From Candidatus Mediterraneibacter stercoripullorum (GTDB lineage: Bacteria > Bacillota > Clostridia > Lachnospirales > Lachnospiraceae), in contig DXCZ01000105.1 of the NCBI GenBank assembly GCA_019115765.1, forward strand, positions 1 to 64,000: DNA of 64,000 nucleotides, in the 5' to 3' direction. This document shows positions 9,568 through 34,862 of this stretch, one piece after another; position 1 is the first letter of the stretch, and each line of letters begins with the position of its first letter. Both the position numbers and the translations under genes were made by a program. The notes below the pieces were generated by a model. That model was given only the letters and a program-made list of their open reading frames with translations, ran no database searches and had not been told where the DNA came from.

Positions 9568-9710
9568 CTTCACTTCTCCCTTCAATGAATTTTCTCTGCC
9601 TGATAAATATATTTCAGTCAGAGAGTTCTTATACCCCACTCCTCATATACAAGATGACTGAAAACAGACGCAAAATGCCCTATGCATATTACAAGAGGTA
9701 TATCAATGTA

Positions 9711-15541: not shown

Positions 15542-16546
15542 TTATAACTCCTCATATTGTGAGCGCTCAGGCAGCAGCCGCTCAAAACTTTCTGTCAGAC
15601 AGGCTCTGATCCCTTCGAAATCAATATCATCTGCACTGTCATTCAGACAGACTGCCCGGTATTTCTGCCTCTCAATACTCCGGCATATATCTGTAATTTC
15701 ATCCATTCCCAGTTCGAAATGCCGTCCCCATCCTGTACTTCTCGGACAAAACTCTCCTTTGCAGATCCGCCAGTCCTTCATAAGCCAATGGCTCACATCC
15801 GATCTGGAGCGGAATCTGTTCGCAGAACACTGCTCCAGCACATTCGGTTCCGCTTCCCACACCTCTGTAAATGTGCTTTTCAGATGGGAGGTGGGAAGAT
15901 GTGAGTCCCGAAAACAGGAAAAGTATTTGAACGGACTAAGAAGCAGGTTGCGTATCAGATTTCCTCCGTACCTCAGGGAGAAAAACTTGCCGCCATGGTT
16001 TCTGATCACGTCTTTCTTGTCAAAATGGCTGTTGATCAGTGCAAAGTTATTCAGTTCCGTGTGCGGGAAGCAGTCCTCCGGATCTGTGGCAGTTATCATA
16101 TCCAGCAGAGCTGTTTCCATGGGAACCCCCTTTCGGAAAAAATCTTCCGGAGCCACGGGGGCCGTCAGATACATGTCATCGTTAAAAAGTACGAACTGCT
16201 CTCCCAGATCCGGGATATTGTGCAGCCAGAGCTCGATCACATTGGAATTGAATGTAGGAAGATACTGTGACGGAATATATTCTTCATGACTGACAATCCT
16301 GAGCCGGGGATGCTCCCGATTCAACCAGGGAGGGATCTGTCCGTCCGTCACGAAAAAGATCCGGTTCAGCCAGGGGGCGAAACACTCTGCACCGCGAAAC
16401 CAGTAGCGCAGAAGCCCCCAGTCCCGGAACCGGTTCTCTGTGCTTCCGTTGTCCTTCTCATCCGGAGAAAAGCACGCCCTCCTGCGCCTCCATTTTGAAT
16501 CATTCCCGTCTACCCACAATATAACAAAATCAATCTTGTCTCTCAC
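15542..16546 (-). CDS. Stealth-family sugar-1-phosphate transferase
   Basis: 334 residues containing the four Stealth blocks: CR1 at the N-terminus (IDFVILWVDGNDSKW), CR2 (RDWGLLRYWFRGAECFAPW to LFNDDMYL, including the acidic NDDM), CR3 (SHWLMKDWRICKG) and CR4 near the C-terminus (ERQKYRAVCLNDS). Family members such as capsule polymerases of Neisseria and GlcNAc-1-phosphotransferase form phosphodiester-linked glycans. The polymer made here may therefore contain sugar-phosphate links (inference). It begins with GTG at 16546, overlapping the stop of the upstream fusion gene by 4 bp (GTGA). Confidence 0.92.
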   Translation of the reverse strand: MRDKIDFVILWVDGNDSKWRRRRACFSPDEKDNGSTENRFRDWGLLRYWFRGAECFAPWLNRIFFVTDGQIPPWLNREHPRLRIVSHEEYIPSQYLPTFNSNVIELWLHNIPDLGEQFVLFNDDMYLTAPVAPEDFFRKGVPMETALLDMITATDPEDCFPHTELNNFALINSHFDKKDVIRNHGGKFFSLRYGGNLIRNLLLSPFKYFSCFRDSHLPTSHLKSTFTEVWEAEPNVLEQCSANRFRSRSDVSHWLMKDWRICKGEFCPRSTGWGRHFELGMDEITDICRSIERQKYRAVCLNDSADDIDFEGIRACLTESFERLLPERSQYEEL

Positions 16547-18984
16547 TGTGCCATGTCCTCATCGATTTTCCTGTGCAGCTGTGCCCGGCTCGCTGTACTC
16601 AGGCCATCGCTTGCCGCCGCCTGCATATCACATGTGCTGCACCTGTCCAGTTCTTCCTTCGTCACCTTGCCATCCCGGTAATCTCTGCAGATCTTATTCT
16701 CATACATGGAATAAGGCTTCTTCGTAAACAGCGCCTTCACCTTATGCCGGAACACCCACCATGCCGGCACCCATATATACTTGTGCATAGCCGGTGATAC
16801 GGAGCCGATCATCCAGCAGTTCCGGTCACAGCAGCGCACCTTTTTTCTCACCTGTTCTGCTTCCGGACTGTTCCACAGTTCCTCCCATGTCTGTGTGTTC
16901 AGATTGCCCATCACTTCCTTGTCCTTCGTGCCGTTGCATGGCATCACATCTCCATAAGGATCGATGAAAAAGGTATCAAAGCTCATATCGCACGGCAGGA
17001 GCCGCTTCTGGCCGTAGATATAATTGATCAGGCCATGATTAAAATACGCCCGGAACCACTTCTTGGGGCTTCTGCTGCGTAGAAGCTCATTGATCAGCTT
17101 TTCAAAATTCTTCGCCACCATGGGACGGTCATGTATGATATTTTTCGTCTCAACGAAATAAAAACTGTTGTGAAGAGAGGCCGTGGCAAACTCCATCCCT
17201 GTTCTGTCAGAGATCCGGTAGAGAGGCACCAGATCCGGGGCATTTCTGTCCTGGACTGTCATGCCGAATCCCACATCCTTCATCCCCATCCTGCGGAGAA
17301 CCTGAAGCGTATGATATCCCCTCCGGTATCCCTCCGGCAGTCCGCGAATCTCATCATTTGTCTTCTCCAGACCTTCGATAGATATCCGGATGCCTATATC
17401 TGGAAACTCTTTGCAGAGATCCACGATGCGGTCTGTGAAGAAACCGTTGGTGGAGATCACAATACGATCGCTTTTCTTATAAAGTTCCCGCACGATATCC
17501 TTCAGATCAGTCCGTATAAACGGCTCGCCGCCAGTGATATTTGTAAAATACATTCTGGGAAGTTTTCGTATTGTCTCGATCGATATTTCTTCTTCCGGTC
17601 TGGATGGTGCCTTATACCGGTTACACATAGAACAGCGCGCATTACAGCGGTATGTAACAATGACCGTTCCGTTCAGCTTCTTGTCTTTGAGTTTCTTTTC
17701 TTTCATCCTCTTTCCTTTTTTCTGCGTTCCTGTTCTTCTCCCGTCTATAGAATGCTCATGCACTGATGAGGGCTTCCGTCTTCCTGTATAGATTTTCATT
17801 AACTTATCGCAGTATCTGTCAACCGTATCAAAGTCCGTACGATTCAGACAGTTCTCCGCATACTGATCCGTCAGCTGCCTGTCGCTCCAGAGCTTCCGTA
17901 TCTTTTCCTTCAGATCTTCTCTGTCGCCGGCTGCAAAGAGTTCTCCGGTCTCCCCGTTCCGGATCAGCTCCGGGATACCTCCCATATCCGCACCCAGGAC
18001 CGGCGTCCCATAGAGCTGACTTTCCATAACGGAGAAAGGACAGTTCTCGTACCATTCTGACGGATATACGGTAAATCTTGCCTCACGGATCAGCGTCTCC
18101 AGCGCGGCTCCGGACTGAAAACCTGCGTTTCTGATATTGTCCGCTCCTGCGATCTCATCTTCCAGCGGCCCCTTGCCGGCAAATACAAAGGAAATCTCCG
18201 GGAGCTCCCGACACACCTGCAGAAGAGTCCTGATGCCCTTTTCCTCTGAATATCTGCCGAAATAAAGAACATAATCCTTTTTTCCCGTTCTCTTCCGTTC
18301 CACGCGGTCCACAAAGTTGTGCATGACTATTGTTTTCCCGGCAAAGACCGGATTCGTGTCCATCTTCGACTTCAGGAATCTGCTGCAGCAGATCACAGTG
18401 TCTATGTACCTGTACACACCGCAGCCGTTCCAGAAGAATGCCTCCGCTGCACCGACGGCAGACTTCGACAGGCTCCCGTGGATACATTTCCCTCGGATAC
18501 AGTTCTGGAAACGGCCGCCCAGACATTTCTCACAGTTCTCATGAGTATTCGGATCATACAGCATATGGTTGGGACAGACAAGCTGATAGTCATGGGCAGT
18601 GTACACGATCCTGCACTTTCTGCCTCTTTCTCTCCTCCATTTTGCGATCTCCAGGATCATGGACGGCGTCAGCTGATAGTTGAAATTATTGAGATGACAC
18701 ACGTCCGGCCGGAAATCATCAAGTACCCTCCTCAGCTTCTTCCTGGCCTCGGAGGAATAGATCGTTTTGACCGGATAGGTCAGCTTAGACAGCATGGATC
18801 CCTGATGAAAATCCATGTCGCTGGTATATGCGTTCACCCGGTTTCCCACACATCTGCCCTCGTGCTCCATTCCAAAATACTGTACTTCATGCCCCTGTTC
18901 CTTCAGGAAATCGCCTAATTTAAATATATATGTTTCCGATCCCCCATTCGGATGGAGGAATTTATTAATCAGGAGAATCCTCAT
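16543..18984 (-). CDS. GT4 glycosyltransferase fused to a radical SAM/SPASM-like enzyme
   Basis: 813 residues in one frame. Residues 1 to about 395 are a GT-B, family-4-type glycosyltransferase (NGGSETYIFKLGDFLKEQGH, LYFGRYSEEKGIRTLLQV, SEWYENCPFSVMESQLYGTP with the EX7E-like acidic pair). A basic linker of about 30 residues follows. From residue 427 a radical SAM protein starts, with cluster cysteines C447, C451, C454 (YRCNARCSMC), then NITGGEP and a C-terminal Cys-rich region (CDMSFD, MPCNG, CCDRNC, CSTCDM) resembling a SPASM/twitch domain. Just before codon 427 the DNA reads AAGGAAAGAGGATG, a normal RBS plus ATG (17706). The gene is therefore either a real fusion or two former genes joined by loss of a stop, and the second half may also be made alone. 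It is embedded in the EPS operon, 4 bp overlap with the Stealth gene. Confidence 0.85.
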   Translation of the reverse strand: MRILLINKFLHPNGGSETYIFKLGDFLKEQGHEVQYFGMEHEGRCVGNRVNAYTSDMDFHQGSMLSKLTYPVKTIYSSEARKKLRRVLDDFRPDVCHLNNFNYQLTPSMILEIAKWRRERGRKCRIVYTAHDYQLVCPNHMLYDPNTHENCEKCLGGRFQNCIRGKCIHGSLSKSAVGAAEAFFWNGCGVYRYIDTVICCSRFLKSKMDTNPVFAGKTIVMHNFVDRVERKRTGKKDYVLYFGRYSEEKGIRTLLQVCRELPEISFVFAGKGPLEDEIAGADNIRNAGFQSGAALETLIREARFTVYPSEWYENCPFSVMESQLYGTPVLGADMGGIPELIRNGETGELFAAGDREDLKEKIRKLWSDRQLTDQYAENCLNRTDFDTVDRYCDKLMKIYTGRRKPSSVHEHSIDGRRTGTQKKGKRMKEKKLKDKKLNGTVIVTYRCNARCSMCNRYKAPSRPEEEISIETIRKLPRMYFTNITGGEPFIRTDLKDIVRELYKKSDRIVISTNGFFTDRIVDLCKEFPDIGIRISIEGLEKTNDEIRGLPEGYRRGYHTLQVLRRMGMKDVGFGMTVQDRNAPDLVPLYRISDRTGMEFATASLHNSFYFVETKNIIHDRPMVAKNFEKLINELLRSRSPKKWFRAYFNHGLINYIYGQKRLLPCDMSFDTFFIDPYGDVMPCNGTKDKEVMGNLNTQTWEELWNSPEAEQVRKKVRCCDRNCWMIGSVSPAMHKYIWVPAWWVFRHKVKALFTKKPYSMYENKICRDYRDGKVTKEELDRCSTCDMQAAASDGLSTASRAQLHRKIDEDMAQ

Positions 18985-22857: not shown

Positions 22858-23586
22858 TTATATGATTTTTCGACCGCTGAGGATGCGTGACGGATTTTCT
22901 TCCAGCAGGACTTCCGAGGCTCCGCTGCCATAAGAGAGGTCAAGGATCCTGGAGGTTTCTTCCAGATCCGGGGTACGCATAACGGGATCATGAGCGTCTG
23001 AGGCAACCAGGCCGGCCAGGCCTTCTCCCAGAATATTGTCCGCAGCATGGAATACACTTCTTCCGAATCTTCCCTCAATGCTTCCCGAATTCACCTGAAG
23101 GATCACACCGTCCCGGCATAAGATCCGGGCTCGATGTTGCTCCTGCCTGATGAAGTCATACCGCTCCGGATGGGCCAGAATGACACGATACTTGCTCCGC
23201 TGAAGTTCATCCAGCATACCTTCCGCACGACGGAAAGAAACGTCAAAATCAAACTCGATCAGAATCGTCCTGCTCCTTCCATACCCGGGCAGGACATGAT
23301 CTCTGGCATAAGCGAGGAGTCTGTCGTCCGCCAGCAGCTCCATGCCGCTTACCACCTGCAGTCCGATCCCCCTTCTTCCCAGTTCCAGGCGGAACTCCTC
23401 CAGCCTGTTCCGGTATGCAGCAAGGTACTTGTCCGGATCATGGTGTGCGAATCTCCCGTGAGAGGTGGCCGCACAGACCATGGTGCCCCCAAGGACGGCA
23501 GTCTCTGCCATTTCCAGAGCATCCTGCATATCTGCAGCTCCGTCATCCAGCCCGGGAAGAATATGCATATGAAGATCATACATCAC
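22858..23586 (-). CDS. PHP-domain protein-tyrosine phosphatase (CpsB/YwqE type)
   Basis: 242 residues. Metal ligands of the polymerase-and-histidinol-phosphatase fold are visible: YDLHMHILPGLDDGA at the start, SGMELL in the middle, AHPERYDF, and ASDAHD near residue 195. Such enzymes dephosphorylate the tyrosine tails of BY-kinases and so control polymer length and export. The start is GTG 23586 overlapping the kinase stop (GTGA); an ATG one codon later is equally possible. It is the last gene of the DUF5011-kinase-kinase-phosphatase unit. Confidence 0.92.
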   Translation of the reverse strand: MMYDLHMHILPGLDDGAADMQDALEMAETAVLGGTMVCAATSHGRFAHHDPDKYLAAYRNRLEEFRLELGRRGIGLQVVSGMELLADDRLLAYARDHVLPGYGRSRTILIEFDFDVSFRRAEGMLDELQRSKYRVILAHPERYDFIRQEQHRARILCRDGVILQVNSGSIEGRFGRSVFHAADNILGEGLAGLVASDAHDPVMRTPDLEETSRILDLSYGSGASEVLLEENPSRILSGRKII

Positions 23587-25064
23587 TCTGTTTCCTCACT
23601 TATCTGACGCTCTCCATACGATCCATAGCCGTGTCCGTAACCGTATTTCCGGTATCCATAACTGCCGTATCCGTATCTTCCATAGCCGTATTCACTGGCA
23701 GATTCCGGATATTCATTGAATACATATCCGAGGAAAGCTGTATTTCTGCCGCTGAGAGAGGTGAATCCTGCCCGGATCTCCCGCTGGGGTACGCTGTCAT
23801 ACTTCACAACATACAGGATGCTGTCAGCATACTCAGCAAATATTCCTGCATCCTGGAACATGCCGCAGGGAGGTGTATCGATGATGATATAGTCCATCTT
23901 CTCCCGCATAACTTCCAGTAATTCTGATATCTTCCCGCTGCTCAGGACAGATACAGGATTCTTCGCAGGGCGGTTTCCTCCCAGGAACCAGAGACTGCTG
24001 CCCTTCATCTTCCGGAGCAGATCCTTCGTCATCTTCTTTCCATGGACAAATTCGATCAGGCCCCCTCCCCTCTTTGCCCCGAGCATCTGCCCGTCCGTCT
24101 GCTTCCTCAGATCTCCATCGATCAGAAGCACGCGGTTTCCGCGCATGGCGAACATTTCCGCCAGATTAACCGCCAGAGTTGACTTGCCCTCACCGGAAGA
24201 CGTGCTCGTTACAAGAAGGATCTTCCCGTCTTCCTTCTTCATAGCCTTCTCGATCCGGGTCTGGAGAGCACGGATGCTCTCCCTGTATCCATAGGATATG
24301 CGCCTATCCGTCACAGACAGGGGCCGTATCTTTTTCGCGTTTCTCGCTTTCATCCGTACATAAGGAACTGAGGCAAGACAACGGAGGCTGGTGATCTTCT
24401 TCATCTCCTCTGTGTTGCGGGCGGTCCTTCGAAACAGTGCCATGAGGCCAAGAATTGCAAGCCCAAGGAACAAGCCTGCCGCGCCGCCCATTGCCAGACT
24501 TCTCAGAGGGCTGACATGGTTAAATGGCTGCTGAGGCGTCTCTGGCTCGTTAAGATAACTGAACTGGATATCACCCAGCACAAACCTTGCTGTCTCAGGA
24601 TAGATCTCCAATGCAGTGGCAAGGATACTGTGTGCATCCTCAGCAGACGGACTCTCCACCCGCATGGTAACAACGTTGGAATTCTCAATCGTCTCAGCAG
24701 TAATGGTTCCGTTCAGTGTGTCTGTCCCAAGCTGTTCCAGAAGAACGCTCCGGAAATAACTGCTGTTCAGGATATAGGGGAAGGTTCTGGACAGCTGATC
24801 AGCCGTACTTGCATTATAGTAGAAGCTGTAGCTTCCACTCTCGCTGTCACCGGTTCCTACGGTAAATGTTGCCGAGCTCTCGTACATCGGCTCATACCGG
24901 ATAGTCCGAAAGGCAAAAAAAACGCCGGCGCACACTGCGATCAGAATCAGGAACAGCCACCACATCCTCAGGAAGCTTCTCCACATTGTATGAAAAAGCA
25001 GTACAAGATCGATCTCCATCTCGTCTTCTGCAGTTTTCGTCATATTTCTCTTCCGTTCTTCCAT
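23583..25064 (-). CDS. BY-type tyrosine autokinase with Wzz-like domain
   Basis: 493 residues combining a Wzz/chain-length domain (two membrane helices, near residues 30-52 and 190-212, around an extracytoplasmic segment) with a cytosolic kinase: Walker A TSTSSGEGKSTLA, Walker A' VLLIDGDLRKQ, Walker B YIIIDTPPCG. The C-terminal tail from about residue 450 is a striking Tyr/Gly cluster with about thirteen tyrosines, the autophosphorylation cluster. It regulates polymer length and export with its phosphatase. ATG 25064 with GAGG nine bases upstream, 5 bp after the second kinase gene. Confidence 0.93.
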   Translation of the reverse strand: MEERKRNMTKTAEDEMEIDLVLLFHTMWRSFLRMWWLFLILIAVCAGVFFAFRTIRYEPMYESSATFTVGTGDSESGSYSFYYNASTADQLSRTFPYILNSSYFRSVLLEQLGTDTLNGTITAETIENSNVVTMRVESPSAEDAHSILATALEIYPETARFVLGDIQFSYLNEPETPQQPFNHVSPLRSLAMGGAAGLFLGLAILGLMALFRRTARNTEEMKKITSLRCLASVPYVRMKARNAKKIRPLSVTDRRISYGYRESIRALQTRIEKAMKKEDGKILLVTSTSSGEGKSTLAVNLAEMFAMRGNRVLLIDGDLRKQTDGQMLGAKRGGGLIEFVHGKKMTKDLLRKMKGSSLWFLGGNRPAKNPVSVLSSGKISELLEVMREKMDYIIIDTPPCGMFQDAGIFAEYADSILYVVKYDSVPQREIRAGFTSLSGRNTAFLGYVFNEYPESASEYGYGRYGYGSYGYRKYGYGHGYGSYGERQISEETE

Positions 25065-25069
25065 AGGCG

Positions 25070-26485
25070 TTATCCTCTCTCCTCCTCACCGTATTCCGAC
25101 CTCTCATATCCGGAATATCCGTTTCTGCTGTATCGGGAAGGCATATCCCGGAACCACTCCCTGTGAAAAGCATTCAGGATAAATCCTGCGAAGTCAGTTC
25201 CACTCTGCCAGATAATGTCCACCATATCATTGATGACACGGATATCCGCCCAGTCCTCACGGACGACAAGGAGCACGGTATCCGCCGCGTCCATCCAGAT
25301 CTCTGCATCTGTAGACACTGCGGTAGGAGAACAGTCAATAATAATATAGTCAAAGTTCTCCTTCCACTCCGCCATCAGTGTCTCGATCATCCCCGTCTTC
25401 AGCACTTCCTCCGGATGCTCCGCAGGCTGGAACTGAAGCAGTTCCCAGATCCGGCAGGATTTGCTGTAGTGCATCACATCTTTCCATTCTGCCTTTCCTG
25501 TCAGGACCTGATCAAAGGAATTCCCCTTCTTTCCCTTGATCTCGAATACCTTGTGCTGTGCAGGTTTTCTCATATCGCCGTCAATGAGAAGGACTCTCCG
25601 GCGCTTTTCTGCCATAGCCAGTGCAATGTTGGCGGCAACCGTGGATTTCCCTTCATTCTCCGTAACACTGGCGACTAGGAGAACCTTCTGTCCCTTCTTC
25701 CGCATACGATACTCCACCTTCGCCGCCGCACTGCGGGCGGCCTCTGCAAAGGCCATAGTCACCAGCGGAGAATTCAGCAGCAGAGACTGCTTCGGATTCT
25801 TCTTCCCGTCTCCGCTCTGCTTCTTTTCAAAAGGAATAACACCACGGATCTTCCCGTCCAGCTGTCTGGAGGCACACATTTCATTCTTCACAGTAAAGCG
25901 AAGCACATAGAACAGGCAGATGACCGCCGCCATACCAAAGGCTCCAAGCAGAGCCAGCAGATACCTCTGAGACAGGATCCACGAAGTATTGGACGGCTGC
26001 TCCGGCACTTCCGGCTCCTGTACCACCTGGAGAACGGAGTTGGAGAATACATCTCCCGCCACTTCTTCATAGTGCTTCAGCGCGGAATTAATATAGAGAT
26101 ATGCCTGTCTCGGATCCGGACTCGTTGCTGTAAGCACGAGCAGGTTCGTCTCCTCCACTGAATCACATGTGACCGTACCCTGTATCTGCTCTCCTGTATC
26201 CGCAGCGATAAGGTTCCTGAGCGCTTCACTCTGGAACACCTGTCCGAAGACGTCCGCCATCTGGGTAGCTGTAGAAAGTGAGGAATATGTATTTCCTGAT
26301 CCTCCGGTGCTGACTACGAGAGTTGCCGACGAGGAATACTGAGGTTCATAAATGATATTATGGATCCCGCCTGCGGCAAGCCAGACCGTGACTGCGGCAA
26401 GGAGGATCATCCATGCATTCCGGATCAGATCCATGCAGAGTCCCTGCCAGCTGATTTCATCTATTCTGAATATTTCCCGCTCCAT
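25070..26485 (-). CDS. Second BY-type tyrosine autokinase with Wzz-like domain
   Basis: 471 residues of the same architecture as the neighbouring kinase. Two membrane helices (about 25-45 and 175-195) flank the periplasm-like Wzz loop. Walker A is VASVTENEGKSTVAANIA, with Asn where the family usually has Gly or Pro; Walker A' LLIDGDMRKPA; Walker B YIIIDCSPTA. The tail has fewer tyrosines (SRYSRNGYSGYERSEYGEE). ATG 26485 after AAAGGAGG. Two adjacent complete kinases may phosphorylate each other or have divided roles (inference). Confidence 0.92.
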   Translation of the reverse strand: MEREIFRIDEISWQGLCMDLIRNAWMILLAAVTVWLAAGGIHNIIYEPQYSSSATLVVSTGGSGNTYSSLSTATQMADVFGQVFQSEALRNLIAADTGEQIQGTVTCDSVEETNLLVLTATSPDPRQAYLYINSALKHYEEVAGDVFSNSVLQVVQEPEVPEQPSNTSWILSQRYLLALLGAFGMAAVICLFYVLRFTVKNEMCASRQLDGKIRGVIPFEKKQSGDGKKNPKQSLLLNSPLVTMAFAEAARSAAAKVEYRMRKKGQKVLLVASVTENEGKSTVAANIALAMAEKRRRVLLIDGDMRKPAQHKVFEIKGKKGNSFDQVLTGKAEWKDVMHYSKSCRIWELLQFQPAEHPEEVLKTGMIETLMAEWKENFDYIIIDCSPTAVSTDAEIWMDAADTVLLVVREDWADIRVINDMVDIIWQSGTDFAGFILNAFHREWFRDMPSRYSRNGYSGYERSEYGEEERG

Positions 26486-26495
26486 ATGTCCTCCT

Positions 26496-27326
26496 TTACT
26501 CTTCTGTCACAACAACTGTCAGCCATGTCTCCCCGTTGTTCCCGCTGCTGTCTGATACTTCATAGTGGATCTCGTAGACGCCCGGCTGGGAGGTATCCAC
26601 ATCGGATGAAGCATCCACAGAGGACACGTCCAGCTGATTGCCCTGGGAGTCTGTTACTTCCCTCACGTAATCCATGGGATCGATCTCACTGCCTGTACTG
26701 GTATATAAGATCCCGCCGGTCAGCGCGATATCCACATTCCGGCTCTCTGCGCTCACTACATGAACCGGCAGGGCAAGTTCCGATACCGCTCCCAGACTGC
26801 TCTCCACCTGTACGCTCATGGTGTAGGAGCCGACCTTCTGGTAATTCACATCTGTATCGGTCTGTGTAATCCAGTCCTTCAGATCTCCGTCCAGCTGGTC
26901 TGCAGCCCCCAGACGGGTCATTGCTTCCGTGTAGCTGCCTTCCTGCTCTGAGAATACCAACGGCTCTGACAGTGTAAATCTCGGAGGATGATAGTCTGTA
27001 AAATGAACACGTCTGGTCAGGGATGCGGGGTGGTCAGCTGAGTCGAATACCACATATGTAATATCAGAGACGCCATCCTCTATAAACCGTGAAAAAGACC
27101 CAGCAATGATCTGGGGCGTCAGATCGCCGTCCTCCTCATCACTGGCACTCAGTCCTTCCATCAGCTGCTCCTCTGTATAGTCACATGTAATCTCAAGCAC
27201 ATCCCGGTCACTGGTAATCTCAGGCTCCGTCCTGTCCTGAAGAACGAACTGAGCCGCTTCCGTCACGCCAAACAGTCCGAGAGACAACAGAAATACAATA
27301 ATCAGTCCCAATCTGACAATCCGCAT
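26496..27326 (-). CDS. Membrane-anchored or secreted Ig-like (DUF5011-type) protein
   Basis: 276 residues from ATG 27326, chosen over an upstream TTG because AAAGGA fits it and a signal/anchor (residues 2-25) then starts the protein. The rest is extracytoplasmic beta-rich sequence with repeated DUF5011/HYR-like units: DEEDGDLTPQI, AADQLDGDLKDWI, and a final unit with QPGVYEIHYEVSDSSGN. It is 11 bp before the kinase genes. Such domains usually bind sugars or mediate assembly; here a role in polymer export or as a sensor next to the Wzz loops is only inferred. Confidence 0.75.
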   Translation of the reverse strand: MRIVRLGLIIVFLLSLGLFGVTEAAQFVLQDRTEPEITSDRDVLEITCDYTEEQLMEGLSASDEEDGDLTPQIIAGSFSRFIEDGVSDITYVVFDSADHPASLTRRVHFTDYHPPRFTLSEPLVFSEQEGSYTEAMTRLGAADQLDGDLKDWITQTDTDVNYQKVGSYTMSVQVESSLGAVSELALPVHVVSAESRNVDIALTGGILYTSTGSEIDPMDYVREVTDSQGNQLDVSSVDASSDVDTSQPGVYEIHYEVSDSSGNNGETWLTVVVTEE

Positions 27327-27377
27327 ATATTCCAATCCTTTCTACTCCGCTTATCTTATTCTGATCTCAGAATTATC

Positions 27378-29138
27378 TCAGAATTCATCCAGGAATCTCC
27401 GGATGCCTTCCTCGTCTACTTCCTCCACTTTATGCTCCCCGATCTTATACACTCTGTTACACATAGAAAACACACTTGGTCTGTGAGCGGCTACGATCAC
27501 CGTCCGATGTGGTTCTTTCTTAATAATGCTGCGCAGCACCCGCTGCTCTGTGGCAACATCAAGAGCACTGGTCGCCTCATCCAGTATCATGACCGGTGCG
27601 TCTGCAAGAATTGCCCTTGCTATAGACAAACGCTGCTTCTGCCCCTCAGAGAAACGGGTTCCCCGCTCTCTCACCTCCGTATCTATCCCATGCTCCAACT
27701 TCTCTACGAACTCCCAGGCACAGGCCGCCTCCAAAGCATAACGGATCTCATCATCCGTGGCCTCCGGCTTCACCATACGCAGGTTGTCCGCTATGGTTCC
27801 TGTAAACATGGTATTCCCCTGAGGGATATAGCTGAACATACAGCGGGTGGAAGATGACGCTCTCAGGTCGTCTCCGCCGGGATTTCCCACGGTGATCCTT
27901 CCCTTTTGTGGATGATAGAGTCCCAGGATCAGGTTGAGAGTGGTAGTCTTCCCCTGGCCGGACGGACCGATCAGCGCTACAATCTCTCCCGGCTCCGCCC
28001 GGAAGGAGGCATCCTGGTAGATCCATCTGCCCTCCTCATAGGCAAAGTCCACATCATCCATATGTACATAGACTCCACAGTCTCTGCCTTTCTGAAGAAT
28101 GGCCTCCGCCTCTTCCCTATCCTCCATGGAGTCCCGGGGCAGTCGGATGATCTCCATGATCCTCTCTGCACTGATCCCGGAACGGATCACTGTAGGCATC
28201 AGGCCCAGTATCCCACTAAAGGATCCTCGAAGAGAAGAAGCCATGGAGACAAACATCGTCATAGTACCGTAGCTGATCTCCCCCTGCCAGAGCCGGAAAG
28301 CTGCGAAACCATAACAGGCATAGCCCACCGCCTGTCCCACGAGAGATGTGGCAATAGTCATATACTGCTGAAACTTATTCTGCCTGAGGGCAATATCCAC
28401 AGACTCCTGCTGGATCCGGTGAAACTTCTCAGTCACCCGGTCCACCATACCGAATGCCTTAATAAACTGCAGATTCTGGAATGTTTCCTGGTCAAAGACT
28501 GTCCGATCGCTGGCTACATTCTGGTTGTCTCTCTGGAAGTCCCGCATCTTCCTGGCTGAATATCGTGAAGTGATAAATGATATGGGCGCTCCTGTCAGAG
28601 CGATCAGCGCCATCCATGGGTCATTCTGTATGACGATAATAAACGCGCCGCTGAAGCTGATCAGCGTGGTCACTACATTAGGCAGGAAGGTGAGAATCGT
28701 GTTGGCTACCATGCCCGCATCGCCGTTCACACGGTAGAGAAGATCTCCGGAACGATACTTTGCCAGGGACTCCCAGTTGGTCCGAAGCACCTGTTCATAG
28801 ATATCCGCCCGGATCTCATTAGTCACCTTCAGCCGGACCTTCAGAGACAGACGAGACTTCACTGCGTTGATAAAGATCTGCGATACGCCCACTCCCACAT
28901 ATGTACAAGCCACCCGGACGATCTCCATGGAGTTGACCCCGGTGATGGCGTCCACCAGATCCTTGCTGACAACTGAGGTCCCCAGGCTTAAGAAAGAACC
29001 GGACGCCCCCAGCAGGATATACACGCCGATCAGCAGCCAGTAACGGCGCACATAGGCGTACATCCAGAGCAGCTCCGACATGAGCTGGTTGAGCCTGCCC
29101 TCTTTAATTCGTTGAATATAATGTCTGATAGAAGCCAT
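27378..29138 (-). CDS. ABC transporter with fused membrane and ATPase domains (type I exporter)
   Basis: 586 residues. Six membrane helices occupy about residues 30-320, then the nucleotide-binding domain: Walker A LIGPSGQGKTT, signature FSEGQKQRLSIARAI (FSEGQ in place of LSGGQ), Walker B PVMILDEATSALD, and H-loop VIVAAHRPS. The family exports peptides, lipids or drugs; no C39 peptidase domain is present. It lies between the peptide-modification cassette and the EPS genes. A terminator separates it from the first, so it may serve either; export of the modified peptide is attractive but unproven. Two promoter-like hexamers lie upstream. Confidence 0.88.
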   Translation of the reverse strand: MASIRHYIQRIKEGRLNQLMSELLWMYAYVRRYWLLIGVYILLGASGSFLSLGTSVVSKDLVDAITGVNSMEIVRVACTYVGVGVSQIFINAVKSRLSLKVRLKVTNEIRADIYEQVLRTNWESLAKYRSGDLLYRVNGDAGMVANTILTFLPNVVTTLISFSGAFIIVIQNDPWMALIALTGAPISFITSRYSARKMRDFQRDNQNVASDRTVFDQETFQNLQFIKAFGMVDRVTEKFHRIQQESVDIALRQNKFQQYMTIATSLVGQAVGYACYGFAAFRLWQGEISYGTMTMFVSMASSLRGSFSGILGLMPTVIRSGISAERIMEIIRLPRDSMEDREEAEAILQKGRDCGVYVHMDDVDFAYEEGRWIYQDASFRAEPGEIVALIGPSGQGKTTTLNLILGLYHPQKGRITVGNPGGDDLRASSSTRCMFSYIPQGNTMFTGTIADNLRMVKPEATDDEIRYALEAACAWEFVEKLEHGIDTEVRERGTRFSEGQKQRLSIARAILADAPVMILDEATSALDVATEQRVLRSIIKKEPHRTVIVAAHRPSVFSMCNRVYKIGEHKVEEVDEEGIRRFLDEF

Positions 29139-29207
29139 TTTTTTATGTAACGTCCCCTTACTATATACTCTCTGTTTCCCTTAATTCCATATATATCTGC
29201 TTCTGAT

Positions 29208-29235
29208 ACTATATCATCGAAAGATAAACCGTGAA
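29208..29235 (-). promoter_or_regulatory. Possible promoter of the ABC transporter
   Basis: TTCACG (29230-29235), 16 bases, TATAGT (29208-29213) on the minus strand, about 70 bases before the ATG. The match is moderate. It is suggested mainly because a terminator lies just upstream. Confidence 0.35.
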
Positions 29236-29248
29236 TTTAAGAAGAAAA

Positions 29249-29300
29249 GATCGCACTTCCCTATCCGACGCATCCGCTGCGTGAATAGGGGAATGCGATC
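29249..29300 (-). terminator. Strong intrinsic terminator at the end of the modification cassette
   Basis: GATCGCA...CCCTAT (29249-29264) pairs with ATAGGG...TGCGATC (29285-29300) with one mismatch and one wobble pair, and an inner ACGCA/TGCGT stem extends it. On the minus strand TTTTCTTCTT follows immediately. It lies about 50 bp after the HPr-kinase-like gene. Confidence 0.85.
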
Positions 29301-29352
29301 CCTCCCCTTTAAAATAATTGCGGATATGATCCGCAGATCATATCGGATAGAA

Positions 29353-30171
29353 CTATATCATCCTTTTCCCAAAGACAGTCTCCTCTGTCAGACGGACAGC
29401 ATCTTCGTCCGGGCGGCAGGAAAGTTCGTAGACGGGAATCTTTGTCAAAAGATGGTCTAATGTCTCTAGGCAAAGCTCCATGCCATTCTCCAGCCATCTC
29501 GGATAGAACACATTATTGGAAACTGCTGTAACTTTTTCAAAACCAGTCAGCTCACGAATCGAGTTTTCCGGCGCCTGTTTCAAAACAATCATGGCATGTA
29601 CTGGAACACTGGTGTTCTCACAATATGGAGAAGATCCGTGCCATGGTGTCCCCCAGCCTAAAAATGCATCTTCCGTCTCCTGGACAAAAACTACGTCGCC
29701 GTTAATAATTAACGCGTCGCGGTATTGATTCCAGAGCTCAGCCTGAGTGGTTTTCCCGATGCCGGATGGGCCAAGGAACATAAGGCCATGATCATGATAC
29801 TCAATTAATGAACTATGCAGATATAGAATTTTTTTCTGAACTGCATGAGTATAAAATAGCTGACATAAAAAAGCATCGGCATGTGAAGGCTCGTTGAGTG
29901 GAAGAATGATAGCGTGTTTCCAAGACGAATCTGTTAACATCATGTCACTGCCGCGCCTGACAACATGCGCTCCAACATCTTCAAAATTAAAACATTCCAA
30001 ACCATGAATTTCATGTAATTCTTGTAAAATATGTACTTCAAAATCCAAAGTCAAATCGTCCTGAATATCTAATCCTTCTTTGTCCCACAAGAATTTTCTG
30101 ATTGCTAATTCATTATGCATCACCATTGAGGAGAATACAATCCGTATTACTTGAAAGATGTCTTTACTCAT
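29353..30171 (-). CDS. HPr-kinase-like ATPase in a peptide-modification cassette
   Basis: 272 residues from ATG 30171, which shares its A with the stop of the preceding gene (TGATG) and so is translationally coupled; an in-frame start at 30201 would overlap more. A Walker A GPSGIGKTTQAELW sits near residue 130. Around it are LYLHSSLIEY, LIINGDVVFV (acidic residue expected to act in catalysis) and GTPWHGSSPY, all typical of HprK-related kinases. It lacks the N-terminal domain of true HPr kinase. Relatives occur in RiPP clusters, where some phosphorylate serine on lasso peptides. Here the target is unknown. The gene is clearly more AT-rich than its neighbours, suggesting acquisition. Confidence 0.75.
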   Translation of the reverse strand: MSKDIFQVIRIVFSSMVMHNELAIRKFLWDKEGLDIQDDLTLDFEVHILQELHEIHGLECFNFEDVGAHVVRRGSDMMLTDSSWKHAIILPLNEPSHADAFLCQLFYTHAVQKKILYLHSSLIEYHDHGLMFLGPSGIGKTTQAELWNQYRDALIINGDVVFVQETEDAFLGWGTPWHGSSPYCENTSVPVHAMIVLKQAPENSIRELTGFEKVTAVSNNVFYPRWLENGMELCLETLDHLLTKIPVYELSCRPDEDAVRLTEETVFGKRMI

Positions 30172-30608
30172 CAGCCAATAACTGATCCTCCACTTACGCA
30201 AGTAGACGCATTACTATGTCTTAAATAGGTAACAAAATCATGAACTTCGTTTGCATAATCTCTATTCCAAGCACTAAAAACATCATTAAGATTTCCTGTC
30301 CTTTGAGCTGTTTCATACAAGTCTGCTGGTTCACGGTTATAAAAGGGACCGTGTAGATTATATGATTGTGTACCAATTGTAAATGGAATTTCCTCCGTAA
30401 AAAATGATACACCAGTAATACCGCCAGTGTATGATACTCCATCATAAGTGATTGTCCATGAAATTCTTGTAGGGTGCACTGTTTCTCCCCCTTCATAATC
30501 ATTCCCTGAACCACTCACCGTGCCATGTTCAATGTCATTCGACATCAGCGCTATTCCGCCCTGTGACTCATACGAATATACTGTTTCTTCTCCGTAAAAT
30601 GTCGCCAT
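30171..30608 (-). CDS. Unrecognised 145-residue protein; candidate substrate or partner of the radical SAM enzyme
   Basis: I do not recognise this family. It has no signal peptide or membrane segment. It is rich in Gly, Ser, Thr and Tyr with alternating hydrophobics in the first 90 residues (beta-like), then a helical part (DLYETAQRTGNLNDVFSAWN) and a short C-terminus HSNASTCVSGGSVIG holding its only cysteine. It starts 2 bp after the radical SAM stop with AAGGG upstream, and its stop overlaps the kinase start. Sandwiched in such a cassette, it could be a large precursor whose C-terminal Cys-containing end is modified, or an accessory protein. Both are inference. Base composition is AT-rich like the kinase gene. 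Confidence 0.7.
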   Translation of the reverse strand: MATFYGEETVYSYESQGGIALMSNDIEHGTVSGSGNDYEGGETVHPTRISWTITYDGVSYTGGITGVSFFTEEIPFTIGTQSYNLHGPFYNREPADLYETAQRTGNLNDVFSAWNRDYANEVHDFVTYLRHSNASTCVSGGSVIG

Positions 30609-30610
30609 AT

Positions 30611-31645
30611 TTATTTTCCCTTTCTACAAAACTCATCTCTAATTTTTAAAGTTCCATCATCTATGTCAAACAAAGCCGCACACCTTGCACAGCTTTTCTG
30701 ATATTCACATTTCTTACATTTCTGAGGCCATTCCATACTTTCCTGAAATGTCACCAGTTCTTTCCAGCACTCGATAAAGGGGGTACTCCTGACCGAGATA
30801 TCCGGTCCATTCATAAAACTGCAGAATCGCATATATCCATTCCAAACAACCCAGTATCCAATTCGAAAATCTTTGCAATATGTACAGGGCTTTCTGTCCG
30901 GATCCATGTTTACTTTTCTTCTGGTCGGCTCCGAAACATCTGCATCCTTTGGCCTTGGCGGTTTAATTCTTAGATGTTCCATATCCACATCCACGCCGCG
31001 CCCGGCCGTTCTTACATTGATATTCGGGATCCATCGCAGCTTATGCTTTTCAACATAACTTATGATATTGTCCACATCTTCCAGGTTCTGATTGATCACT
31101 GTGGTAACTAACTCTACAGGTATGTTCATTGCCCGGAGCATCTGAATTCCTGCATCTGCCCTGGTAAATCCCTGTTCCACCCGACATACATCTCTGTATA
31201 CGTCGTTGTTGGAACCATAGAGAGTAATCTTACATCCCCGAGGCGGACATTCTTCAAACAGCTTTTCATACTTTGGTACCAGCGCTGCATTTGTCTGAAG
31301 TGTAATAAAGAAGCCCATCTGTGTCAGTTCGCGCCAGATTGTCTCAAATTCAGGATGCATCAGTGGCTCTCCGCCTGTGATGCACAGCCAGGTTGTCCCT
31401 GCTTCTTTCGCCTCATGTGCAATCCGGATCCACTCTGATGCGGACAGTTCTGTTCCATGTTCTCTGATCTTGCTTTCAGGAAGATGTACATAGCACATCC
31501 GACAGTTAAAGTTACATCTTGGAGTCAGTTCAAAGGTGCCGGATATGGGGATGGCATCTGCATATGCTTTTTCCCATACAGCCTTATAAAAGGGATCCAG
31601 CCACTCCATCCTGCGGCATGCCGGCTCAAATTCATTTCCACTCAT
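30611..31645 (-). CDS. Radical SAM/SPASM peptide-modifying enzyme
   Basis: 344 residues. C44, C48 and C51 (PRCNFNCRMC) bind the SAM cluster; WLCITGGEPL is the SAM-binding GGEP. The C-terminal region from about residue 255 has a SPASM-like set of cysteines (CTYC, MRFCSF, CKKCEYQKSCARC and a last Cys four residues from the end) for auxiliary clusters. With a PqqD-like gene directly upstream and overlapping by 4 bp (ATGA), it matches the layout of enzymes that form thioether, carbon-carbon or epimerised peptides. The reaction type is not readable. Start ATG 31645. Confidence 0.88.
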   Translation of the reverse strand: MSGNEFEPACRRMEWLDPFYKAVWEKAYADAIPISGTFELTPRCNFNCRMCYVHLPESKIREHGTELSASEWIRIAHEAKEAGTTWLCITGGEPLMHPEFETIWRELTQMGFFITLQTNAALVPKYEKLFEECPPRGCKITLYGSNNDVYRDVCRVEQGFTRADAGIQMLRAMNIPVELVTTVINQNLEDVDNIISYVEKHKLRWIPNINVRTAGRGVDVDMEHLRIKPPRPKDADVSEPTRRKVNMDPDRKPCTYCKDFRIGYWVVWNGYMRFCSFMNGPDISVRSTPFIECWKELVTFQESMEWPQKCKKCEYQKSCARCAALFDIDDGTLKIRDEFCRKGK

Positions 31646-31965
31646 TTCTGCTGCTTCGGCATACGCATACTGAAACTTCCGTACACCTGTCCTTCTATTT
31701 CCAGTATACCCTTTTCTGCTAGTCCTTTCAGAAATACATCCAGGTCTTTGCTGACCTGTTCCCGGGTTGCGTCCGCGTATCGTTCCAGAGTAAGCTTGAT
31801 CAGATCTTCTTTTTCAAAATCGTGATCCTTCATATACTCCCAGAGGTAAGCTGCAGGTTTTGTTATGTAATTCACCCCGGTTATCTCCTGCACCCGTTTC
31901 CCGGTAGGAACGATGACATACTGTCCAGCAACCTCCCGCAGGACCAGACCGTCTTTCAGCTTCAA
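31642..31965 (-). CDS. PqqD-like peptide chaperone (RiPP recognition element)
   Basis: 107 residues with the PqqD pattern: LVLREVAGQYVIVPTG, GVNYITKPAAYLWEYM, and a winged-helix half with DLIKLTLERYADATREQVSKD. These small proteins bind leader peptides and present them to the partner radical SAM enzyme. The start is TTG 31965 with AGGGAG nine bases upstream; a TGA lies in frame just before it. It is the first gene of the cassette, about 115 bp after a candidate regulated promoter. Confidence 0.82.
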   Translation of the reverse strand: MKLKDGLVLREVAGQYVIVPTGKRVQEITGVNYITKPAAYLWEYMKDHDFEKEDLIKLTLERYADATREQVSKDLDVFLKGLAEKGILEIEGQVYGSFSMRMPKQQK

Positions 31966-32078
31966 CTTCCATCACTCCCTTTAATCCTGAACCGCAACAT
32001 AACTTTCAGGCTTCTGTTTCTCTCTCACTTGATACGTTCATAAGAAAAAAGAAACCTTACTTTTCTCACACACCGGTA

Positions 32079-32110
32079 AGTATATTATCCAAAGTGTTAC
32101 CAAACTGTTA
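32079..32110 (-). promoter_or_regulatory. Candidate SARP-regulated promoter: tandem 11-bp repeat and -10
   Basis: On the minus strand TAACAGTTTGG (32100-32110) is followed directly by TAACACTTTGG (32089-32099), one mismatch, then four bases and TATACT (32079-32084). Direct repeats with an 11-bp period just upstream of -10 are the classical site of SARP-type regulators, and the gene next to it encodes such a response regulator. The second repeat includes that gene's stop codon. Target: the cassette starting at 31965. Confidence 0.6.
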
Positions 32111-32917
32111 CTCTTCGATCACCCCGTCTGCCAGTTCCAGTCTGGCGCATGTTTCCTCTGCCCAGGAGTATTCATGGAGATAATTTCCGGTCAGACGCCA
32201 TTCCCGCAGCGCCTCCGGATTTCCTCTCAGCAGCTCATAATAATCACAGTCGATTTTCTGCGCGTCAATCTGACAGCTTCCTCTGTTTCCCGAGAAGATA
32301 TCCTCCACTCCATTCTCCGACAGGACCATCCGGATATACATGACTGCTTTGCGGTATAGATTCTTGACCTGGCTGTCATAGGCTCTGTCCTCCCATAGCT
32401 TGTCCGCCGCTTCTTCCATTGTAACAGTGCCCCCTCTGTGGTCCACACAGAGCGCGAACAGCTCCTTTGCCTTTGTATTTGCGAAGTAAACGGCCTTCCT
32501 GTCTATAAACACGTCGAATCTTCCAAAAGTCCGGACATATACCCGCTTTCCCTGCCGTGCAGACAGCAGTTTTGCCCGGTCCAGCACTTCCCTGATATCA
32601 TCGCTGTCATATGGTTTAGTCAAATAATAGTCCGCCTTCACCTTCAGGGCATCCAGCGTATACTGCTCATATCCTGTCACGAAGACGACCACCAGATCCG
32701 GAAGGATCTCTCTCATTTTCTCCGCAAGCACAAGCCCATTCATCCCCGGCATCTCTATGTCCAGAAATGCCGCCTCCACCATATTATCCCTGACATAATC
32801 CAACGCCTCCAGAGGATTAAAAAACGCCCCCGCAACCGTCACCCCCGGTATTTCATCCACCTCCATCGAAAACTGTTTCAGCGCCAGCCTCTCATCGTCT
32901 ACAATAATAACCCGCAT
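32108..32917 (-). CDS. Response regulator with SARP-like winged-helix output domain
   Basis: 269 residues. Receiver domain 1-120 with acidic pocket D7/D8, phospho-acceptor D53 (AAFLDIEMPG) and the conserved Lys in YYLTKPY. From about residue 125 a winged-helix OmpR/SARP-type domain (VYVRTFGRFDVFIDRKAV, FANTKAKELFALCVDHRGG) is followed by a BTAD-like helical region. Its kinase gene is immediately upstream in transcription. The next genes downstream are the modification cassette, with an 11-bp tandem repeat in the gap, so control of that cassette is inferred. ATG 32917 with GGAG upstream. Confidence 0.88.
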   Translation of the reverse strand: MRVIIVDDERLALKQFSMEVDEIPGVTVAGAFFNPLEALDYVRDNMVEAAFLDIEMPGMNGLVLAEKMREILPDLVVVFVTGYEQYTLDALKVKADYYLTKPYDSDDIREVLDRAKLLSARQGKRVYVRTFGRFDVFIDRKAVYFANTKAKELFALCVDHRGGTVTMEEAADKLWEDRAYDSQVKNLYRKAVMYIRMVLSENGVEDIFSGNRGSCQIDAQKIDCDYYELLRGNPEALREWRLTGNYLHEYSWAEETCARLELADGVIEE

Positions 32918-33035
32918 TCACATCACTCCTCAAAAAAGTATATCAATCATTCTCAGCCATCTTCCGAAACTTCGTTCCCTCTTGCCTCAGAGCCCAGTCG
33001 TGAAGGAACCGTGTTGTCACGAAGGCCCCCTGAGA

Positions 33036-34862
33036 CTACCCCCTCTCTTTCGGGAACCTGACCGTAACTTTCGTCCCTTCTCCCTGTCTACTCTCTATCT
33101 TCAGCGATCCCCCCGAGATCTCCTGTACCCGGAACCTGATGATCATCAGCCCGATATGATTCCCCTCATCGGAATACTGACGAAGATTTCCGTCATACTC
33201 TGCCTCTTCTCTGTCCTTTTTCCATTCCGGCCTGCTGATTTCATTTCTTGCCGTTTCCTCCATGACAGACACATCGAATCCTTCTCCATCATCTTCGATC
33301 ACCACCACATAGGCGTCTTTTTCTTCCCTGCTGCTGATCGTCACTGTTCCGCCGTCCATTTTTCTGCATATCCCATGTTTCACAGCATTTTCCACCAGTG
33401 GCTGTATGGAGAGCGGTGGCACAAGGAAGCTTTTCGCCTGTATGTCCTCCACTACATTCAGTCTGTCCTCGAACCGTATCTTCTCAATATTCAGATAAGC
33501 TCTGATATGCCGAAGCTCATCGGAAAAGGGAATTTCCTTGCTGCCGCTTATGCTTTCCAGGTTGGAACGCAGATAAGTGGAGAAATCATATACCGTCTTC
33601 CTCGCAGCCTGAGGATCCTCTGTGATCAGATACCGGATAGAGTTCAGTGTATTATAGATGAAGTGCGGTTTGATCTGGCTGGTTACCAGCTCAGCCCTGC
33701 TCTGCCACAGTTTTTTCTCCAACTCCTGACTCTCCCTGATCTTATGATACAGCATAAGCGCACAGATCCGCAACAGATTCAGTGCATACAGCAGGATGGC
33801 AATCCTTATGTATATTCCGACAGCGTTGTTCGTCATATAGAAGCGGCCGATCTCCGCAGCGCCAGCCAGCACGATCACACATAGGCAGACAAGCTCTGAA
33901 CGGATGGACTCTCCTTCTTTTTTCATCGCCGCACGGACATAGACCAGCGCCGTATATCCCAGAGACAAAGCGATCAGTCCAAGGATCAGGGGCAGGAGCC
34001 TGATCAGATCCGGTCCGCCCAGGACTTCTGACAGCAGACATCCGGCGGCAGCAGCCATATTGATCCCGAACAGCAGCGATGTAGCCCTTCCCCAGATATT
34101 TCTCCATCTCTCGTGCAGGTAGGCAGCCAGGAATGCCGGACAGAACAGGAGGGATACAAGAGACAGATAGTGCCAGCCCTCCACTCCCACTTTTCCGGAC
34201 GGAAGCTTGGATTCGCCGCAGAGCCACATAGCCAACAGAATGAGAAGGATCCCCAGATTCCTGTGCCAGGCAAATGCCCGGTACCTGCTCTCGAAGAATG
34301 AGAGCAGGACAATGGCCGCTCCTATGATCCCGATCAGGAAGCTAAGGCGGAATACCGGCAGCTGTCTGCTAAGCACATCAGAGACCAGTTCGCTGAAGTC
34401 TCCGTAAGAACACTCGCTGATCCTTCCTGAGAATCCGGAATAGGGTGAACTCAGACAGATCCGGATTTCTTTTCCTGCATCTTCTTTCGACAGGCGAACG
34501 AAATTCCATACGCTGGGCATATCGTTTCCTATCAGATTTTCTTCTGGATACTTGTAGATCAGCCTGTCCTCTACATAGACGCTGACTGTCTGCATCCTCG
34601 TCCGGAAAACAACTGCTGAATCGTCATCGGCATCTTCCGGCACGGTATTGTACAATGTGATCACTGTATTTTCCGGCACATTCAGAAAGGCAGGAAGTTC
34701 TGTTGTGCCACGAACGTCAGCGTAGCTGTATTCCCACCCTTCATTATAGTCATATACTTTTCTGCTGCTGAAGAGATCCTGCCGGTGTGAAAAAGAGATC
34801 AAGATCATAAATGACAGAACGATCAGGATCGCTGTAATCTCTGATATCCGTTTTATCTTCAT
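33036..34862 (-). CDS. Sensor histidine kinase (7TM-DISM, LytS/YesM-like)
   Basis: 608 residues: N-terminal helix, extracellular beta-rich sensor (about 30-180, DISM-like), seven membrane helices (about 185-375), then HisKA_7TM/His_kinase region with H400 in IKPHFIYNTLNSIR and HATPase with PPLSIQPLVENAVKHG and VIEDDGEGFD. Such kinases commonly sense peptides or glycans. The partner regulator starts 118 bp downstream. ATG 34862, with GAGG a little far upstream. Confidence 0.88.
   Translation of the reverse strand: MKIKRISEITAILIVLSFMILISFSHRQDLFSSRKVYDYNEGWEYSYADVRGTTELPAFLNVPENTVITLYNTVPEDADDDSAVVFRTRMQTVSVYVEDRLIYKYPEENLIGNDMPSVWNFVRLSKEDAGKEIRICLSSPYSGFSGRISECSYGDFSELVSDVLSRQLPVFRLSFLIGIIGAAIVLLSFFESRYRAFAWHRNLGILLILLAMWLCGESKLPSGKVGVEGWHYLSLVSLLFCPAFLAAYLHERWRNIWGRATSLLFGINMAAAAGCLLSEVLGGPDLIRLLPLILGLIALSLGYTALVYVRAAMKKEGESIRSELVCLCVIVLAGAAEIGRFYMTNNAVGIYIRIAILLYALNLLRICALMLYHKIRESQELEKKLWQSRAELVTSQIKPHFIYNTLNSIRYLITEDPQAARKTVYDFSTYLRSNLESISGSKEIPFSDELRHIRAYLNIEKIRFEDRLNVVEDIQAKSFLVPPLSIQPLVENAVKHGICRKMDGGTVTISSREEKDAYVVVIEDDGEGFDVSVMEETARNEISRPEWKKDREEAEYDGNLRQYSDEGNHIGLMIIRFRVQEISGGSLKIESRQGEGTKVTVRFPKERG

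Follow-up and report, generated by a model that had tools for sequence, protein, structure and literature searches.

A widespread capsule-locus cassette combines a radical SAM enzyme and an HprK-like protein with a hypervariable proposed substrate

We analysed a 64,000-nucleotide stretch of Candidatus Mediterraneibacter stercoripullorum DNA (contig DXCZ01000105.1, positions 1 to 64,000 of the forward strand; hereafter the window), in which a four-gene operon on the reverse strand (31965-29353) encodes, in transcription order, a PqqD-like protein, a radical SAM/SPASM enzyme (rSAM), a 145-residue protein that we propose as the substrate (SUB) and an HprK-like protein (KIN). Downstream follow a strong hairpin, an MsbA-like ABC exporter and a capsule locus. 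The cassette is a real and widespread system. With moderate confidence, we favour the view that its product is a protein that is modified after translation and then exported, by the logic of the linear polyphosphorylated peptides (LPP) but with an added radical SAM enzyme and with substrates that can be exchanged. The elements on which the argument turns are listed below (RiPP, ribosomally synthesized and post-translationally modified peptide; RRE, RiPP recognition element).

31642-31965, reverse strand: PqqD-like protein, probable stand-alone RRE; 107 aa, Pfam PqqD 1.1e-8
30611-31645, reverse strand: radical SAM/SPASM enzyme (rSAM); 344 aa, Pfam Radical_SAM 6e-22
30171-30608, reverse strand: SUB, hypervariable proposed substrate; 145 aa, single Cys137 near the C terminus
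29353-30171, reverse strand: KIN, HprK/PEPCK-fold protein, probable kinase; residues 1 to ~118 hypervariable (KIN-N), 119-272 conserved (KIN-C, with H119, GPSGIGKTT and NGD)
29242-29309, reverse strand: long hairpin and U-tract at the KIN/exporter junction, terminator- or attenuator-like, from fold and covariance model
27378-29138, reverse strand: MsbA-like ABC exporter; 586 aa, ABC_membrane and ABC_tran, no peptidase domain matched

The PqqD-like and rSAM genes overlap by 4 bp, rSAM and SUB lie 2 bp apart, and SUB and KIN overlap by 1 bp in the sequence TGATG; the listed KIN start is a TTG at 30201, but the alignment with its relatives begins near the ATG at 30171. A first-pass annotation, made from the sequence alone, had described this tight four-gene arrangement and a strong terminator at its end. 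Coordinates, Pfam matches and the predicted KIN fold bear out the former, with SPASM assigned by cysteine pattern only, and the hairpin described below bears out the latter. The annotation had also taken the genes for a peptide-modification cassette that may act on the 145-residue protein. Co-occurrence across genomes supports this as likely, but the annotation overlooked the capsule setting and the exporter (27378-29138) as the next gene; its observation is confirmed and its interpretation partly supported.

To establish how widely the cassette occurs, an alignment of KIN was scanned against 84,980 species genomes, which yielded 40 loci in Blautia, Mediterraneibacter, Fusicatenibacter, Roseburia, Sellimonas, Drancourtella and other genera. 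Some of these come in pairs from a single genome or contig (L065/L092, L082/L088, L072/L093, L077/L090, L062/L076 and L096/L097), and nine repeat contigs of genus loci that carry other ids. SUB adjoins KIN in all 35 loci with room for it; of the remaining five, L062, L076, L095 and L096 begin inside KIN and L090 is a KIN fragment. Both PqqD and rSAM are present in 30 of 33 loci with room, the exceptions being L087 and L088 (PqqD without rSAM) and L065 (neither, with SUB truncated). An exporter lies 3' of KIN in 35/38 loci with room and capsule genes in 33/37. In all of these counts the SUB of L077 and L097 and the exporter of L096, which a summary table scored as absent, were taken as present from other readings of the loci. 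The neighbourhood comparison that the first-pass annotation had proposed thus speaks for a system.

Consistent with these counts, a search of 99 genomes of relatives gave ten KIN matches of at least 49% identity beyond the window, all ten in PqqD-rSAM-small ORF-KIN-exporter loci; one is L007, a second cassette in the window's own genome. In L044 the contig ends within the exporter, and in L043 the exporter is split. As a side observation, the exporter gene reads as two open reading frames (ORFs) in L043 and L091, and the Wzz-type gene is split in L065. Within the genus, 12 exporter matches reach at least 85% identity and ten of them stand beside KIN; the other two (G036:C6 and G037:C17) are at the edges of their contigs and are therefore uninformative about an exporter without KIN. 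The order PqqD-rSAM-SUB-KIN-exporter-BigS (an Ig-like surface protein)-Wzz recurs in many genera and, by way of a SUB profile, also in L146, outside the family.

Starting from SUB instead of KIN, the window protein alone found three other places in the 99 genomes, all adjoining KIN. The SUB profile matched in 12/397 family genomes and 2/398 phylum genomes, the window's genome being in both counts. SUB is thus not widespread without the radical SAM enzyme, an occurrence that the first-pass annotation had named as speaking against its reading, and such cases were seen at L065 (truncated), L087, L088 and L132. Because 11 of the profile's 14 places are rows that built it, only independent SUB-first places were counted, and KIN is present at four of these five; the KIN-first count of 35/35 is independent of the profile and so unaffected. 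Among the three non-training places KIN is found at two (G000:C92 and G559) and not at G200:C114; L007 and L146 are whole cassettes with exporter and capsule genes, and L132 is PqqD-SUB only. The genome of L132 also holds L133, where PqqD, rSAM and KIN are accompanied by a protein that weakly resembles SUB.

We next consider SUB itself. The alignment used here (A5) has 33 members, the window and 32 of the 35 KIN-adjoining SUBs; it leaves out L059 (fusion with a foreign start), the truncated L065 and L094, where the contig ends inside the gene, and the SUB of L007 is also absent. SUB is 95-146 aa long and has a median pairwise identity of 25% (27 loci), yet a Cys stands 2-10 residues before the C terminus in 33/33 and is the sole Cys in 26/33. 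The excluded SUBs of L059, L065 and L094 have their final Cys at a distance of 8, 6 and 5 residues from the end, respectively. Only one Gly and this one Cys are invariant, and three Trp are nearly so. No Pfam or NCBIfam family was matched by the window SUB, the 33 aligned SUBs gave single weak Pfam matches only (best 0.0071), and a sequence search of solved structures returned antibody chains only, at E>=0.12. AlphaFold predicts a domain of mixed beta/alpha type, with pLDDT 76 and pTM 0.70 in the best of five models and 60-64 in the rest; confidence is low at 13-39 and 142-145, and the predicted fold had no match in the PDB at E<=0.001. SUB is under coding constraint: among the 12 pairs that exceed 50% identity and could be measured, which are not mutually independent (three further pairs were saturated), 11 have dN/dS <=0.53, and the near-identical cassettes L091/L092 have 0.96. 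A chance ORF was ruled out by dN/dS and by occurrence in other genomes. The annotation's remark that no short classical precursor is evident also held, as no ORF of at least 30 aa lies wholly within the operon-flanking gaps of the window and a single 21-aa ORF is present there.

The PqqD-like protein is 36-83% identical across 10 relatives, and its profile matched only one RRE among solved structures, TbiB1, weakly (E 0.25). In rSAM, both the CxxxCxxC motif and a SPASM-type C-x9-15-G-x4-C pattern are found in 11/11 sequences; the pattern places the window's SPASM-type cysteines at C254, C257, C275, C310, C313, C319, C322 and C340, and Pfam SPASM gave no match in the window rSAM. Its nearest solved structure by profile is the sactipeptide maturase SkfB (6efn, 2.1e-17). 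KIN is probably a kinase of the HprK/PEPCK fold. The window KIN matches Hpr_kinase_C at E 0.0015, under the Pfam cut-off, and the domain is matched in 29/29 members of the KIN alignment, the window included, at E up to 0.1; its predicted fold (pLDDT 89) resembles 68 PDB chains at E<=0.001, of which the 50 listed are PEPCK and HprK. The Walker A motif GPSGIGKTT, NGD and an H-[SA]-S motif are kept in 29/29. As judged by median identity over 27 loci, KIN-N is as variable as SUB (25%), compared with 58% for rSAM and 75% for KIN-C.

SUB and KIN-N are exchanged as an allele pair. Between L007 and L041, from another species, identity is 99% for the sensor histidine kinase, 100% for the response regulator, 98% for PqqD, 97% for rSAM, 98% for KIN-C and 99% for the exporter, against 32% for SUB and 28% for KIN-N. 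DNA identity was profiled along seven pairs, this one included, of which four dip over SUB and the start of KIN (L007/L072, and the window against L061, L063 and L058), and one, L091/L092, carries the same allele. A larger block of PqqD, rSAM, SUB and KIN also moves: between the window and L044 the two-component system is 83-85% identical and these four proteins are 24-44% identical. The variable segment coincides with an AT-rich dip (0.35-0.38 in 500-base windows at 29750-30749 versus ~0.5 around) that covers SUB and the N-terminal part of KIN only, and because SUB and KIN-N are more AT-rich than the exporter and KIN-C in 27/27 loci, we equate the dip with that segment. The first-pass annotation had called the kinase and 145-residue genes AT-rich and read this as a hint of transfer. 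The dip is real over SUB and the segment is indeed swapped, but it takes in only the N-terminal domain of KIN and not the entire kinase.

Identity matrices over the 21 loci with all nine genes revealed that the enzyme block and the capsule block are inherited largely separately. Identities of PqqD and rSAM correlate at r 0.84 and those of the exporter, BigS and Wzz at 0.62-0.88 (exporter-BigS 0.85), compared with -0.03 for rSAM and the exporter; KIN-C correlates with both blocks (0.30-0.45), and SUB tracks PqqD and rSAM (0.40 and 0.42, p 0.002).

The KIN/exporter junction carries a hairpin that is at least a conserved terminator-like element. Positions 29240-29320 fold at -41.2 kcal/mol (z -7.5) into a 21-pair stem with a U-tract. 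A covariance model built from 12 loci and searched against 53 sources matched at E<1e-7 in 23, always at this junction, where five weaker matches also lie; 11 of the 23 are outside the training set, one of them identical to a training copy. In one 3.2-Mb genome the model found two sites only, one in each cassette. Both bases have changed in 10 of the 21 stem pairs, each in one sequence, and 96% of alignment cells pair. No match was obtained in L067, L078, L084 and L085, where the KIN and exporter ORFs overlap, and Rfam gave no family for the hairpin in window positions 26000-34000 and one chance-level match elsewhere. The element could act as an attenuator.

The closest published system (Nat Commun 2026; PMC13381572) is LPP, which comprises an RRE, the HprK-like LppK, the signal-peptidase-like LppS, an MsbA-like exporter and an NTP transferase in capsule loci; LppK phosphorylates precursor Ser, the RRE is needed for leader cleavage, and precursors are 35-200 aa with variable C-terminal parts. 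The window cassette shares the stand-alone RRE, the HprK-like kinase, the MsbA-like exporter and the capsule location. It differs in adding a radical SAM/SPASM enzyme ("radical SAM" occurs 0 times in the main text of PMC13381572), in having no NTP transferase between PqqD and the exporter, in lacking a counterpart of the signal-peptidase-I-like LppS (eight window proteins were scanned and none has a peptidase domain), in the absence from all 33 SUBs of the YxxP motif found in LPP and lasso leaders and in exchanging SUB with the kinase N-domain as alleles. A loose YxxVxA-like element occurs near the N terminus of 24/33 SUBs and is weak support only, because its bearers are homologues. Given what is shared and what differs, the cassette would, by analogy, work like LPP without being a member of it. 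The first-pass annotation could not name the combination of an HprK-like protein with radical SAM and PqqD; RRE, HprK-like kinase and exporter together do already bear the name LPP in that report, and the radical SAM enzyme is the addition.

Signal-peptidase-like proteins do occur in sister loci, above the Pfam cut-off in L046 and below it in L136 and L137. L135, L136 and L137 each have an RRE, a radical SAM enzyme, an HprK-like protein, a signal-peptidase-like protein (by resemblance only in L135) and an exporter near capsule-type genes, which suggests that radical SAM variants of LPP form a wider group.

Other known systems lie further away. Paeninodin-like phosphorylated lasso peptides, as presented in PMC13381572, also have an RRE and an HprK-like kinase and are often capsule-associated, and an older survey mentions HPr kinases in the lasso clusters of anaerobes (PMC4289311). 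By Pfam, neither a macrolactam synthetase (lasso cyclase, C) nor a B2 protease is among the cassette proteins. With the sactipeptide systems (SKF/SkfB, subtilosin/AlbA) the cassette shares the SPASM-type enzyme and SkfB as nearest solved relative, and it differs in having one Cys in 26/33 substrates, a separate PqqD-like protein, a kinase and a far larger substrate; the one invariant SUB Cys is compatible with a sactipeptide-type thioether from Cys to an alpha-carbon. The SynChlorMet cassette (ScmC, ScmE, ScmF) likewise brings together an HprK-like protein, radical SAM/SPASM enzymes and a PqqD-like protein. Against its NCBIfam models the window scores far under cut-off (ScmC 17.2 of 125 bits, ScmE 69.1 of 400 bits; ScmF not above cut-off). 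In the literature covered, outside which most subscription journals lie, we found no report joining HPr kinase or HprK, radical SAM, PqqD and RiPP or precursor, none joining SynChlorMet with radical SAM, and none on PqqD and radical SAM with an exopolysaccharide RiPP or a Lachnospiraceae kinase and precursor.

Within the LPP-like reading, the PqqD-like RRE would bind the N-terminal segment of SUB, and the SPASM enzyme would crosslink the conserved C-terminal Cys, most likely as a thioether to a neighbouring tail residue, as suggested by the SkfB-like enzyme together with the conserved Cys. The HprK-fold kinase would dock SUB through its variable N-domain and, by analogy with LPP, phosphorylate it; the adjacent exporter would carry the modified SUB out, to act at the cell surface or capsule. 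More tentatively, and with less confidence than in this scheme, we propose that fixed enzymes process exchangeable SUBs, each with its own kinase docking domain, into strain-specific surface or capsule molecules, with the hairpin setting co-expression of the capsule operon, and that these constitute a new class in gut Firmicutes. Two chemistries, radical SAM and HprK-type phosphorylation, would then meet around one substrate family in the capsule loci of gut bacteria. The natural swap pair differs essentially in substrate and kinase N-domain only, making kinase-substrate recognition and the role of capsule-linked RiPPs directly testable.

Several results weigh against this reading. No Ser or Thr is conserved in SUB, and 9/33 tails have neither past the Cys; the fold predicted for SUB would be unusual in a RiPP core; and the cassette contains no leader protease gene. 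The exporter travels with the capsule genes rather than with rSAM and hence may serve the capsule. L087 and L088 are PqqD-SUB-KIN without rSAM and L132 is PqqD-SUB alone, although the genomes of L088 and L132 also hold a fuller cassette, so that enzymes may act in trans. In two of the seven profiled pairs (L069/L079 and L075/L078) the dip affects the start of KIN but leaves SUB out, and SUB and KIN-N identities correlate weakly across the 21 loci (r 0.16, p ~0.02). Their covariation by distance found no support in a partial Mantel test with KIN-C and rSAM held constant (r 0.03, p 0.33; window and 26 of the 32 A5 loci, the exporters of L091 and L093 being dropped for a split or cut ORF). As covariation is unsupported, only the paired swaps were kept as evidence; its absence perhaps reflects both proteins lying near the identity floor.

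Some of these points would fit an alternative that we consider unlikely, albeit the best of those weighed, in which SUB is a partner of KIN, such as an adaptor or regulatory subunit, and the target of the enzymes is something else, such as a component of the capsule. The predicted fold, the rSAM-less loci L087 and L088, the joint swapping with KIN-N and the want of a conserved phospho-acceptor all agree with it. A partner is, however, expected to be conserved with its enzymes, which the median identities contradict; the part that SUB does keep is the C-terminal Cys, as a target of rSAM would; and the operon gaps of the window offer no alternative small gene (relatives were checked for ORFs of at least 70 aa only).

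We find it improbable that SUB is a pheromone precursor sensed by the adjacent two-component system to control capsule expression. Among the 30 loci that have both PqqD and rSAM (a few with less than 3 kb of upstream sequence), 21 do have a sensor kinase immediately upstream, of GHKL type in 12 and of the window's type in 10, with one locus having both, and a regulator like the LytTR protein of L006 (Pfam) accompanies 11/12 GHKL loci. Yet the GHKL kinases of L007 and L041 are 99% identical in both halves with SUB at 32%, and the N-terminal half of the sensor is 87% identical between the window and L044 with SUB at 24%. These two pairs disfavour an Agr-like system, in which the sensor varies with its peptide (sensor 99% and 83% versus SUB 32% and 24%). 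The two-component system may regulate the operon.

A weapon or conflict factor, bacteriocin-like and hypervariable through diversifying competition, seems to us just as improbable. The AT-rich variable alleles, their swapping, the patchy distribution and the SUB dN/dS of L091/L092 accord with it, but the fixed place in capsule loci and the low dN/dS of the other 11 pairs do not, and no candidate immunity gene was noticed in the cassette, although no search was aimed at one. Finally, PqqD and radical SAM proteins also belong to the PQQ and mycofactocin pathways, but a cofactor pathway that consumes SUB for one small molecule is barely credible here, since cofactor precursors are conserved whereas SUB is hypervariable and 95-146 aa long, and the NCBIfam models for PqqE (55 of 381 bits) and mycofactocin rSAM (54 of 265 bits) score far under cut-off on rSAM.

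The features flanking the cassette and exporter are as follows.

33036-34862, reverse strand: sensor histidine kinase, upstream of the cassette (Pfam)
32108-32917, reverse strand: response regulator, directly upstream of the PqqD-like gene (Pfam)
32084-32111, reverse strand: promoter-like site 5' of the PqqD-like gene, 9/12 matches, weak
26496-27335, reverse strand: Ig-like bacterial surface protein (BigS), opening the capsule block; domain scan, 33/37 loci with room
25070-26485, reverse strand: Wzz capsule chain-length determinant fused to a P-loop domain (AAA_31); domain scan
23583-25064, reverse strand: second P-loop protein of Wzz/AAA_31 type (AAA_31); domain scan
22858-23586, reverse strand: CpsB/CapC capsule protein, 2.3e-44

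Beyond the Ig-like, Wzz/P-loop and CpsB/CapC proteins, the capsule locus contains glycosyltransferases, a Stealth-type protein, a polysaccharide flippase-type protein and a sugar transferase. Within it, 16543-18984 (reverse strand) encodes an 813-aa protein combining GT4-type glycosyltransferase, radical SAM and SPASM domains, and at its far end 3300-5000 and 5131-9639 (reverse strand) encode two choline-binding-repeat proteins, one with a transglutaminase core. More distant clusters of KIN, PqqD and radical SAM were seen at L049, L051, L054, L055 and L056, of which L051 and L055 come from the window's genome (contigs C62 and C78). A protein of ~1,580-1,830 aa lies nearby in all five, with DUF7601 in that of L049, the one scanned. 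In L049, L051, L054 and L056 we observed candidate precursors of 82-86 aa that match no family above cut-off, start like MKKTYEKP and carry an IA(S/T)C-like motif.

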